Below are positions 5,080 to 64,000 of a stretch of DNA of 64,000 nucleotides, piece after piece. Under the pieces are notes generated by a model, which saw nothing but the letters and a program-made list of their open reading frames with translations, made no database searches and was not told the DNA's origin. The stretch lies in the NCBI GenBank assembly GCA_022843485.1, contig JALHNM010000003.1, positions 1 to 64,000 on the forward strand. The letters run 5' to 3'. Within the stretch, counting starts at the first letter, position 1. Every line of letters starts with the position of its first letter. The position numbers were made by a program, and so were the translations under genes. This stretch comes from Fimbriimonadaceae bacterium. Its GTDB lineage: Bacteria; Armatimonadota; Fimbriimonadia; Fimbriimonadales; Fimbriimonadaceae.

Positions 5080-5313
5080 ACGGACCCGCGCCGGCAAACC
5101 CCGCACATGCGCATGGGTCTTTCGTCCCTATCACCGTCGAACTTCGGCACGGGCCCTTAAGAAAGCGGGGGCCGGAACCGTTATCCAACCTAGCGAAGAC
5201 AGGTCTCGACGCAGACAACGGCACGACGGGGGCGACCCCGATCACGCAAAGCCACGGGTCTCCCTGAGATCGCCGGGTTGCCTACGAAGAGGCGCTGAAC
5301 TGCGAGGTCTGTC

Positions 5314-47182: not shown

Positions 47183-49588
47183 GTGAGCTTCGGATCGGGC
47201 ACGGTCTGCCGCCTCGCCCTCGCGGGGATCGCGGTCGCGATGGCCGGCTGTGGCCCGGGCCCCTCCTTGCCCGCCGAGACCGTGCTCACCGTCTGGGGCA
47301 CGACGATCGGTCCCGACGACAAGGGCCAGGCCGACGTTGTCCGCGAGTTCGAGCGCCGCCACCCCGGCGTGCGAGTCCTGACCCTCGGGATGGGCGCGGG
47401 GGGGATGAACCCCCAAAAGCTCATGACCGCCATCGTCGGCGGCACACCCCCCGACGTCGTCTACCAAGACCGCTTCACCGTCGCCGACTGGGCCGCCCGC
47501 GGGGCGTTCGAGCCCCTCGACCCCCTGGTCGAGCGTGACCGCCTCCACGACCCCCGAACCCCGACACCGGACGATTACTTCCCTGCCCCCTGGCGCGAGG
47601 CTAGCTTCGAGGGACGGCTGTACGGGGTGCCCTGGATGGCAGACAACCGCGCTCTGTACTGGAACCGGGCCGTCTTCCGCGAGCGAGCGGGCGACCTCCG
47701 CCGGGCCGGTCTCGACCCCGAACGGGCGCCCCGAACCTGGTTTGAACTCCTCGCGTACAGCCGCGTCCTGACCGAGCGCGCCCCGGACGGGAGGCTGGTC
47801 CGCGCCGGGTTCGTGCCCCTTTACGGGAACTCCTTCTTCGTGCTCTTCGCCCTCCAGGCGGGGGCGCAGGTGATCGGCCCCGACGGCCGCACCGCTACGC
47901 TCGACTCGCCCCAGGCCGAGCGGGCCCTCGAGTTCCTCAAGGACGCCTACGCGATCGTCGGAGGGGTCGAGGAGGCGGGGCGCTTCGCCGCGTCGTTCGC
48001 TGGGCAGGCCGATGACCCCTTCATCAAGGGCCGGGTCGCGATGAAGCTGGACGGGGACTGGTCGCTGCGAGGGCTGGCCCGGTTCGCGCCCGACCTCGAC
48101 TTCGGGGTCGCCCCTCCGCCCGGCCCCGAGGGCCCCTCCGTCACCTGGACGGGCGGGTTCGCCTACTGCATCCCCCGGGGTGCCCGGCACCGCGATCTCG
48201 CGTGGGAGTTCGTCAAGTTCGTCACGAGCGAGGAGGGGCGGCTGCTCGAGTTCCGCGGCCAGGACGAGCTCAACCGCGCCCGGGGCCAGGCGTCGTTCCC
48301 CAGGGTGAGTGCCCACCGCGGGTTCAACGAAGCCGCGCTCGCCGAAGCCCTTCCCCGGCGTCCGTCTTTCGCCGCGGCTGTCCGCCAGCACATGGCGCTC
48401 ATGGTCGTCGCCGAGCCCCGCCCGGTCTCAGTCGCCAGCAGGGCGGTCTGGGACGAGCAAGCTCGGGCCCTCGACCGGACGCTCCGTGGACTCGCGACCC
48501 CCCGCCAGGCCCTCGCCGAAGCCGACCGCCAAGTCCAGGCTCAGCTCGACGCCCACTACCGGCAGGAGGCGTTCCCCGTCGCGGATCTCCGGGTGCCGGC
48601 CGTGCTGGGTCTCTTTGGGCTCGCCCTGGGTGCGGCGCTCTTCGCGGCTCGATTCCGCCGCGCCCGACTCGGGCCGGTCGCCCGGACGGAGGCCGGGTGG
48701 GGTGTGCTCTTCGTCGCGCCGTGGGTGCTCGGGTTCGTGGCGTTCACCGCGGGGCCGATGCTCGCGTCGTTGATCCTTAGCTTCACGCAGTACAACGGCC
48801 TCCAGCCACCGCGGTGGGTGGGGACGGGCAATTACGAGGCGCTCTTCGGGCTTGAAGGCGGGCTGACGGCCCGGGCATTCGGCAACGCGCTCTACCTAAC
48901 CGGCGTCGGGGTACCGCTTGGGCTGGTCACCGGGCTGTCGGTCGCGCTCCTCCTCGACGGGAGGGCGCGGGGTCTGCTCGCCTACCGCGCCGTGGCGACG
49001 TTCCCCACGATCGTCCCTGCCGTCGCGACCGCCGTCCTCTGGGTCTGGATCCTGAACCCGGACCCCGCACAGGGGTTGGTGAACGGCGTCTGGGGGGCCA
49101 CCGTCGGCGAGTGGTTCCGCGTTCCCCCGCCGGGGTGGTTCCAATCCGAAGACTGGGCCAAGCCCGGGCTCGTGCTCCTGGGCCTCTGGGGGGCGGGGGG
49201 CGGGGCCTTCCTCTGGCTCGCCGGGTTGCGGGGGGTCCCCAAAGAGCTTTACGAGGCAGCGGCCCTCGATGGGGCGCGACCGTGGGCACAGTTCGCCGCC
49301 GTCACCCTCCCGATGCTCAGCCCGCTCGTCTTCTTCAACGCGGTCACCGGCGTGATCGCCGCCCTCCAGACCTTCGACGCCCCGTACGTGGTGACGGGCG
49401 GAGTAGGCTCCGGGCCGAACGACGCGCTCGCCTTCCCCGTCAACCGCCTCGTCCAAAGCGGGTTCGCCGACTTCCGGATGGGTCATGCGAGCGCGCTGGC
49501 GTGGACACTGTTCGTGGTCGTGCTGGCCGCGACCGCCGTCCAGATGCTCGTCGGGCGACGGTGGGTGTACGACGAGGCGGGGCCGTGA
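47183..49588 (+). CDS. Fused sugar ABC transporter binding protein and permease
   Basis: One 801-residue protein joins an extracellular solute-binding domain to a MalF-type permease. It begins with a lipoprotein-like signal (ALAGIAVAMAGCGP), then a family 1 binding protein of about 430 residues (GGTPPDVVYQDRF, GVPWMADNRALYWN, GRVAMKLDGDW). A helix at about 470 (LGLFGLALGAALFAARF) leads into six membrane helices with the ATPase-contact EAA loop YEAAALDGARPW. Normally these are two separate proteins. GTG 47183 starts it, and its TGA overlaps the next permease as GTGA. Lack of an adjacent ATPase suggests a shared MsmX-like ATPase. Confidence 0.88.
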   Translation: MSFGSGTVCRLALAGIAVAMAGCGPGPSLPAETVLTVWGTTIGPDDKGQADVVREFERRHPGVRVLTLGMGAGGMNPQKLMTAIVGGTPPDVVYQDRFTVADWAARGAFEPLDPLVERDRLHDPRTPTPDDYFPAPWREASFEGRLYGVPWMADNRALYWNRAVFRERAGDLRRAGLDPERAPRTWFELLAYSRVLTERAPDGRLVRAGFVPLYGNSFFVLFALQAGAQVIGPDGRTATLDSPQAERALEFLKDAYAIVGGVEEAGRFAASFAGQADDPFIKGRVAMKLDGDWSLRGLARFAPDLDFGVAPPPGPEGPSVTWTGGFAYCIPRGARHRDLAWEFVKFVTSEEGRLLEFRGQDELNRARGQASFPRVSAHRGFNEAALAEALPRRPSFAAAVRQHMALMVVAEPRPVSVASRAVWDEQARALDRTLRGLATPRQALAEADRQVQAQLDAHYRQEAFPVADLRVPAVLGLFGLALGAALFAARFRRARLGPVARTEAGWGVLFVAPWVLGFVAFTAGPMLASLILSFTQYNGLQPPRWVGTGNYEALFGLEGGLTARAFGNALYLTGVGVPLGLVTGLSVALLLDGRARGLLAYRAVATFPTIVPAVATAVLWVWILNPDPAQGLVNGVWGATVGEWFRVPPPGWFQSEDWAKPGLVLLGLWGAGGGAFLWLAGLRGVPKELYEAAALDGARPWAQFAAVTLPMLSPLVFFNAVTGVIAALQTFDAPYVVTGGVGSGPNDALAFPVNRLVQSGFADFRMGHASALAWTLFVVVLAATAVQMLVGRRWVYDEAGP

Positions 49589-63437: not shown

Positions 63438-63443
63438 TATACT
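63438..63443 (+). promoter_or_regulatory. Candidate -10 before the riboswitch
   Basis: TATACT lies about 30 bases before the conserved part of the c-di-AMP aptamer and 55 bases after the peptidase stop. No good -35 is visible. It would place the riboswitch on its own transcript. Confidence 0.5.
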
Positions 63444-63471
63444 TATGCCGGTGGCCTTTACGGGCCACTCC

Positions 63472-63585
63472 GAGGCCTAATGCCGGGCGACCGGCAACGG
63501 GGGAACCGAGTCAAGGGGTGAATCGCGGCGCGAGTCGTGAAGGGTGGTTCTTGGCCCTAACCCGTCAGCTAACCTCGTCGGCCGA
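63472..63585 (+). promoter_or_regulatory. c-di-AMP (ydaO-yuaA) riboswitch
   Basis: This leader contains the conserved ydaO-yuaA blocks in order: GGGGGAACC (63499-63507), GGGGTGAATC (63515-63524), GTGAAGGG (63537-63544) and the hallmark ACCCGTCAGCTAACCTCG (63560-63577) followed by TCGGCC, closed by GGCC at 63474-63477. This RNA class binds cyclic di-AMP and usually turns genes off for cell-wall hydrolysis, potassium or osmolyte transport. A 6-bp hairpin (CCAGGC-TCT-GCCTGG) overlaps the ribosome site of the next frame, suggesting control of translation. Confidence 0.93.
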
Positions 63586-63618
63586 TGCAAGAACCAGGCT
63601 CTGCCTGGAGGAGGAATC

Positions 63619-63831
63619 GTGGGTCCCGTCGTCCGAACCGTCCCGTCGCGCTGGCACAACGAAGTGTCGATGAAGGCGTGCGTGTCGTTAGGCGCCGTCC
63701 TGCACCGTCTGCCCTTTTCTCCGCCGCCCTTCGTGGGCCAAGCGGGTCTCTCGGTCAGCGAAATCCCTCCTATCCCCCTCTCCGCCCGCCCGGCCCTTTT
63801 CCACCACGCGGGCCGTGGTCGGACGCCGTAG
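63619..63831 (+). CDS. Small protein controlled by the c-di-AMP riboswitch
   Basis: The 70-residue frame begins with GTG 63619 after GGAGGAGG 5 bases upstream, one of the best ribosome sites in the window, directly after the riboswitch. It is rich in Pro, Arg, Val and Ser (VRTVPSRWHNEVSMKACVSL, RLPFSPPPFVGQAGLSV) with about 78% GC at third positions, and ends before a hairpin. I recognise no family. It could be a true small gene or the remnant of a larger riboswitch target such as a hydrolase; an untranslated regulatory RNA is also possible. Confidence 0.5.
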   Translation: MGPVVRTVPSRWHNEVSMKACVSLGAVLHRLPFSPPPFVGQAGLSVSEIPPIPLSARPALFHHAGRGRTP

Positions 63832-63847
63832 GGGACCTCCGAAAGGC

Positions 63848-63881
63848 GCCCGGGGAGCTCGACGATGAGCCTCCCCCGGGC
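63848..63881 (+). terminator. Hairpin after the riboswitch-controlled frame
   Basis: GCCCGGGG pairs with CCCCGGGC over 8 bp, extended by two more pairs past a bulge, 17 bases after the stop of the small frame and before the fabI promoter. It lacks a T tract. Confidence 0.5.
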
Positions 63882-63914
63882 CGCTGTCTCCCCGGCAAGC
63901 GTACAATGCGCTCC

Positions 63915-64000
63915 ATGCTCCTGGACGGCAAGAAGGGCCTCGTCCTCAACGTCACCAACAAGAACTCGATCGGCTGGGCCGTCGCCCGGGCCGCCCACGA
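63915..64000 (+). CDS. fabI: Enoyl-[acyl-carrier-protein] reductase FabI, N-terminal fragment
   Basis: The frame runs off the right edge after 28 codons plus two bases. It reads MLLDGKKGLVLNVTNKNSIG followed by WAVARAAH, the NAD-binding start of FabI (usual form GKKGLVVGVANKNSIAWAIA), which reduces enoyl-ACP in fatty acid synthesis. TACAAT at 63902-63907 is 7 bases before ATG 63915, so the transcript is probably leaderless; ATG 63906 would add three residues. Confidence 0.88.
   Translation, partial: MLLDGKKGLVLNVTNKNSIGWAVARAAH

Follow-up and report, generated by a model that had tools for sequence, protein, structure and literature searches.

A c-di-AMP riboswitch ahead of an unsupported small frame in a Fimbriimonadaceae genome: a candidate free-standing RNA unit

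What can a c-di-AMP riboswitch control when no gene of the known target classes stands behind it? The question is raised by the last few hundred nucleotides of the window (i.e., the whole stretch of 64,000 nucleotides analysed here), where the aptamer is followed by a 70-codon open frame, a strong hairpin and fabI. A first-pass annotation of this DNA had read the frame as an unrecognised small gene served by the riboswitch, with a possible role in the cell wall. Our analysis leads to a different reading, in which we place about as much trust as doubt: the locus most likely forms a free-standing RNA unit that responds to c-di-AMP and descends from a cassette that once joined a riboswitch to a small gene.

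The aptamer, the borders of the unit and its neighbours

The covariance-model search proposed in the first-pass annotation matches RF00379 from end to end (model positions 1-134 of 134; E 1.6e-16, Infernal cmscan; score in Table 1), bearing out the full set of conserved blocks recognised there. The riboswitch is single-copy in this 2.96 Mb genome of the Fimbriimonadaceae (Armatimonadota), as judged by an RF00379 search of the whole genome, and the same genome encodes a c-di-AMP synthase with a DAC domain. Judged from its sequence, the aptamer is a genuine c-di-AMP riboswitch, for which ligand binding is predicted. As had also been annotated, no known target (i.e., an ion or osmolyte transporter or a cell-wall enzyme) stands directly behind it, the next frame having no Pfam or NCBIfam match and the next gene being fabI; its RF00379 membership stands all the same, since such a target downstream is typical of the family and not a defining trait. 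The tail behind the aptamer contains no other Rfam family that we could find. Elsewhere in the window lies a c-di-GMP-I riboswitch (5210-5285, forward strand; 39.7 bits, gathering score 35).

Across the family, RF00379 occurs in 74 of 85 genomes, usually in one to three copies, and 117 riboswitches were collected with their surroundings. About 20 of them have the same tail as that in the window (GATGCAAGAACCRGG...CCYGGAGGAGG) and are here called type II. In nearly all of these relatives a TATAAT-like hexamer (5-6 of 6 matches) precedes the aptamer by 17-36 nt, the counterpart in the window being the -10 element of Table 1. At the other end, the hairpin annotated between the frame and fabI is present and strong, has no T-run and was not called by a terminator scan. 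The riboswitch seems to open a short transcript of its own, from about 63450 to 63885 and apart from fabI. As to what a free-standing RNA should display, the promoter element is conserved, no conserved gene lies downstream, and the closing hairpin is strong but without a T-run.

Table 1. Features of the riboswitch unit and of the fabI promoter, in window coordinates
Feature	Position	Strand	Remark
-10 element TATACT (GTGTATACT) of the riboswitch transcript	63438-63443	+	start expected near 63450
c-di-AMP riboswitch aptamer (RF00379)	63464-63598	+	cmscan 78.3 bits, gathering score 38
GGTTCTTG, 5' strand of the tail pseudoknot helix	63546-63553	+	pairs with CAAGAACC at 8 of 8 positions
GCAAGAACC, 3' strand of the tail pseudoknot, last CC common to the hairpin	63587-63595	+	
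Hairpin CCAGGC-TCT-GCCTGG (CCAGGC/GCCTGG), hides the first GG of the ribosome site	63594-63608	+	covariation, folding energy
Shine-Dalgarno-like GGAGGAGG	63607-63614	+	conserved in type II relatives
70-codon open frame, GTG start, stop ending at 63831	63619-63831	+	not supported as protein gene
CCCTCC, first block of a clade-specific RNA-level element	63765-63770	+	7 of 9 clade members
CACCAC, second block of the same element	63802-63807	+	7 of 9 clade members
Closing hairpin of the unit, strong, no T-run; candidate terminator	63846-63881	+	-26 kcal/mol
TACAAT, own -10 of fabI	63902-63907	+	same arrangement in most of about 20 relatives

The riboswitch could also be the long leader of fabI (63915-64679) and of the FTCD-like gene behind it, fabI being the next well-supported gene on the same strand, with its start 317 nt 3' of the aptamer. 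We consider this very improbable and reject it because fabI has its own -10 in most of the family, just as had been annotated: a TATAAT- or CATAAT-like hexamer precedes the ATG by 6-10 nt in most of about 20 relatives. Moreover, the strong hairpin stands between the riboswitch and fabI, and, as judged by coordinates, no other fabI-bearing genome has the two side by side, the nearest (G041) keeping them 4.7 kb apart; it is the fabI-FTCD pair that is common in the family. With a -10 so near its ATG, fabI itself seems to be leaderless in the family (63902-63915 in the window; fabI loci L126-L148).

On the 5' side the unit follows ftsE, ftsX and an M23 peptidase, as annotated, and a link to the cell wall was proposed from them. 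We abandon this link because the neighbourhood is unique to this genome, with regard to both the M23 peptidase and fabI. In many relatives the type II riboswitches adjoin a divergent sugar-ABC gene, whose product fuses a solute-binding protein with a permease, and an MFS transporter often lies downstream. The best match in the window (about 53-55%) to the ABC gene divergent from this riboswitch in the congener is at 47183-49588 (forward strand), 16 kb from the riboswitch, and no riboswitch remnant was found beside it; the M23/fabI setting is thus peculiar to this genome. The distance to the ABC gene suggests that the riboswitch unit has moved.

The open frame and the slot behind the riboswitch

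If the riboswitch served the 70-codon frame, the latter should evolve as a gene, and the first-pass annotation expected it to be conserved beside the riboswitch, with synonymous bias. This expectation fails in the congener and in sister genera. In the only congener compared the frame has no significant match (the best, with E 0.4, is at another place); the riboswitch and the ribosome site are intact there, but no ATG, GTG or TTG follows within 2-12 nt, although a CTG is present. Codon usage is atypical as well: the frame scores -0.004, where gene pieces score 0.31 ± 0.20 and wrong frames -0.36 ± 0.31. Its score is the best of its six frames and yet below 91% of equal-length gene pieces from the same genome. 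The corresponding frames of eight clade mates all score negatively, whereas five of the six sister-genus genes tested score positively. Substitutions, too, are without codon pattern, the mismatches at the three codon positions being flat in the G000/G010 pair (0.28/0.27/0.29, from few sequences) and also in G016/G041 and G016/G060, with many phase shifts. The sister-genus genes, used as positive control, do show the coding pattern (0.05/0.05/0.23 and 0.30/0.25/0.46). The frame has no match in Pfam or NCBIfam.

Could it still be a real protein of about 70 residues that evolves very fast, with its translation controlled by the riboswitch? We find this rather unlikely. It would agree with the good ribosome site and the canonical start codon behind it in most of the nine clade members, with the similar length of several clade frames (65-71 codons), and with an in-frame C-terminal HHWG or HHAG in G000, G060, G041 and G007 (HH in G053 and G025). 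Some clade members also share short similarities at the protein level, in most members the second block of Table 1 shares the frame of the start codon, the substitutions of one pair (G041/G060) tend towards a coding pattern (0.17/0.18/0.32), and sister genera do carry a small protein gene in the same slot. As the nine clade sequences are mostly MAGs, indel errors could hide a frame. Against this stand the congener, the codon score, the flat substitutions with their frequent phase shifts, and the place of the frame outside the sister-genus protein family. The 70-codon frame is therefore not supported as a gene.

What sister genera have in this slot is a genuine small gene of about 95 residues (about 90-114) with the motif K.R.LLRL.R, for which the members scanned gave no convincing match in Pfam or NCBIfam. 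A six-frame profile search of the 85 genomes gave 28 hits at E ≤2e-9. Of these, 23 lie behind a c-di-AMP riboswitch, one being the second copy of a tandem; the other five have no such riboswitch in front, and two of them contain internal stops (examples of the gene are G011:C35:79794-80078, G024:C1:202905-203213 and G027:C11:416107-416391). So a riboswitch type serving an unrecognised small gene does exist, as the first-pass annotation had it, with the protein being a different one and found in sister genera; the part of the claim that concerns the window frame does not hold. The frame was also tried as a member of this protein family and rejected for want of a match to its profile (A1, -2 bits), and the six-frame search gave no hit in the genome of the window. 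In the congener, a divergent member of the family (E 5.5e-4) follows the second of its riboswitches. Riboswitches were also seen ahead of another set of small proteins (about 120-142 amino acids, several ending in YPFMEYSS or similar; e.g., G002:C1:57540, G005:C1:129383, G023:C97:5624 and G032:C1:2523209). We propose that the unit derives from a family-wide cassette, made of promoter, aptamer, ribosome-site hairpin and small gene, and that the small protein was lost in the clade of the window (five genera), where the slot would now evolve as RNA.

That slot does contain a conserved element. In seven of the nine clade members, the window included, a pattern [ACT]CCTCC-(26-32 nt)-CACCAC lies 129-178 nt 3' of the aptamer, with its blocks in different reading frames in different species. 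The pattern was derived from the sequences themselves before counting; a stricter form of it had six matches in the 85 genomes, five of them behind this riboswitch, compared with one match for a reversed control pattern. Judging by base complementarity, CCUCC can pair with the GGAGG of the same RNA. Five tails of the clade, folded to a consensus, gave short stems only.

The conserved pair of blocks also bears on whether the locus might be a decaying remnant, i.e., a cassette that lost its small gene, was shifted here by rearrangement and has no present function. Such decay would fit the loss of the small protein in the clade, the unconserved frame and the 16 kb between the unit and the ABC gene that it accompanies in relatives. 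However, at least three genera, with FabI proteins that differ by 15-25%, have kept the aptamer, the promoter, the hairpin and the block pair intact, and we regard decay as unlikely. Since the small frame changes in a way unlike that of protein genes, the probable product is the RNA itself, in keeping with a free-standing unit.

The hairpin over the ribosome site

How would such a unit respond to c-di-AMP? The ribosome site annotated before the GTG is present, and the CCAGGC hairpin does overlap it as described, taking the first GG of GGAGGAGG. The tail strand CAAGAACC pairs with GGUUCUUG of the aptamer, in a helix that we regard as the tail pseudoknot of the ydaO fold; the helix is formed in 20 relatives as well, some of its pairs being replaced there by others (for instance, U-A by C-G at pair 6). 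In the hairpin, pairs 3-6 show compensatory substitutions among about 20 relatives. Its outer CC/GG is fixed in 20 loci, and the inner pairs vary on both sides (A-U 9 and G-C 9 at pair 3; G-C 14 and A-U 3 at pair 4; G-C 10, A-U 6 and U-A 1 at pair 5; automated stem parsing missed the hairpin in G041 and G017, where it is visible by eye). This covariation suggests a translational switch. Folding gives -8.8 kcal/mol for the window hairpin, -2.9 without the shared pairs, and -9.8 for the pseudoknot helix. Hairpin and pseudoknot are mutually exclusive at two nucleotides on each side. This points to a control of translation in which the ligand frees the ribosome site, and from it we infer a ligand-ON direction.

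In the mechanism that we propose, the hairpin CCAGGC-UCU-GCCUGG would cover the first GG of GGAGGAGG when c-di-AMP is absent. Upon binding, the aptamer would draw the shared CC into the tail pseudoknot, the hairpin would fall from -8.8 to about -2.9 kcal/mol, and GGAGGAGG would be freed. The freed site could then start translation of a short frame whose sequence is immaterial or, likelier, alter RNA pairing via GGAGG and CCUCC, either internally or with other RNAs. Termination of the unit, like any action in trans, we infer.

Riboswitch-led RNAs in the family and known systems

Candidates for standalone RNAs of another build are found in relatives. A perfect anti-Shine-Dalgarno sequence, CACCUCCU, occurs behind 38 of the 117 riboswitches of the family; the search looked for CACCTCCT within 200 nt 3' of the aptamer, and its two controls, upstream and 600-1000 nt downstream, each gave 0 of 116. 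For the reverse complement of CACCTCCT (i.e., an ordinary Shine-Dalgarno sequence) the count was 6 of 117. An intrinsic terminator, taken as a hairpin of -10 kcal/mol or stronger that has four or more T among the 12 nt behind it, comes next within 25 nt at 31 of the 38 loci. The extended form of the motif, AGCACCTCCTGTTGAGC, is nearly invariant in many genera. The genes behind these RNAs vary (hisB, dnaK, sucD and others, identified from sequence and not by family search); hisB has a TATAAT-like element near its ATG at several of the loci, and in G023 the next long frame is on the opposite strand. Examples are L095 (G006:C5:288807-288947), L079 (G018:C1:1962454-1962593) and L008 (G023:C27:6353-6489); the type is absent from the genome of the window. 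The position of the anti-Shine-Dalgarno mostly just before a terminator, together with the varying neighbours, suggests that the 38 loci are candidate standalone c-di-AMP-sensing regulatory RNAs. We also considered that the ligand opens this anti-Shine-Dalgarno, and dropped the idea, as the difference on folding is too weak to claim (mean unpaired 0.46 in the tail alone, 0.36 at full length and 0.37 in control windows).

It is tempting, and to us somewhat doubtful, to extend these observations to the whole family: Fimbriimonadaceae might use the c-di-AMP riboswitch as the sensor of free-standing regulatory RNAs, of the CACCUCCU type or in the clade version with GGAGGAGG and CCUCC-CACCAC, where c-di-AMP would decide whether the RNA can pair elsewhere, with ribosome sites or with ribosomes. 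If so, the messenger would work through an RNA without a target gene of its own, and this RNA and the small protein of the sister genera would be testable c-di-AMP outputs beyond potassium, osmolytes and cell-wall hydrolases. In the papers searched, no work on this riboswitch in Armatimonadota was found.

The aptamer is the same, at full length, as that of the ydaO/yuaA/kimA riboswitch (RF00379), but here it has no known target gene and the unit looks free-standing. Riboswitches have been reported as trans-acting small RNAs, for example the SAM riboswitches SreA and SreB and the B12-responsive Rli55 of Listeria. The likeness to our unit is an aptamer set in a short RNA of which the tail, and no gene behind it, would be the product; ligands and mechanisms differ, and we take the likeness as a lead only.

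The c-di-AMP riboswitches studied so far are OFF switches, the translational one of Corynebacterium glutamicum included (PMC9960051, PMC6488665). The latter, at nlpC, has a cell-wall peptidase as its target; its authors discuss a CTCC/GGAG pairing and propose control at the ribosome site (PMC9960051). It has the aptamer family and the ribosome-site control in common with the window, where no target is recognised, the hairpin is built differently and the direction is putatively ON. In Bacillus thuringiensis, c-di-AMP turns OFF the potassium transporter kdpFABC by transcription termination, through an aptamer of the same family (PMC6488665); in the window, by comparison, that aptamer leads to a ribosome-site hairpin and to no transporter.
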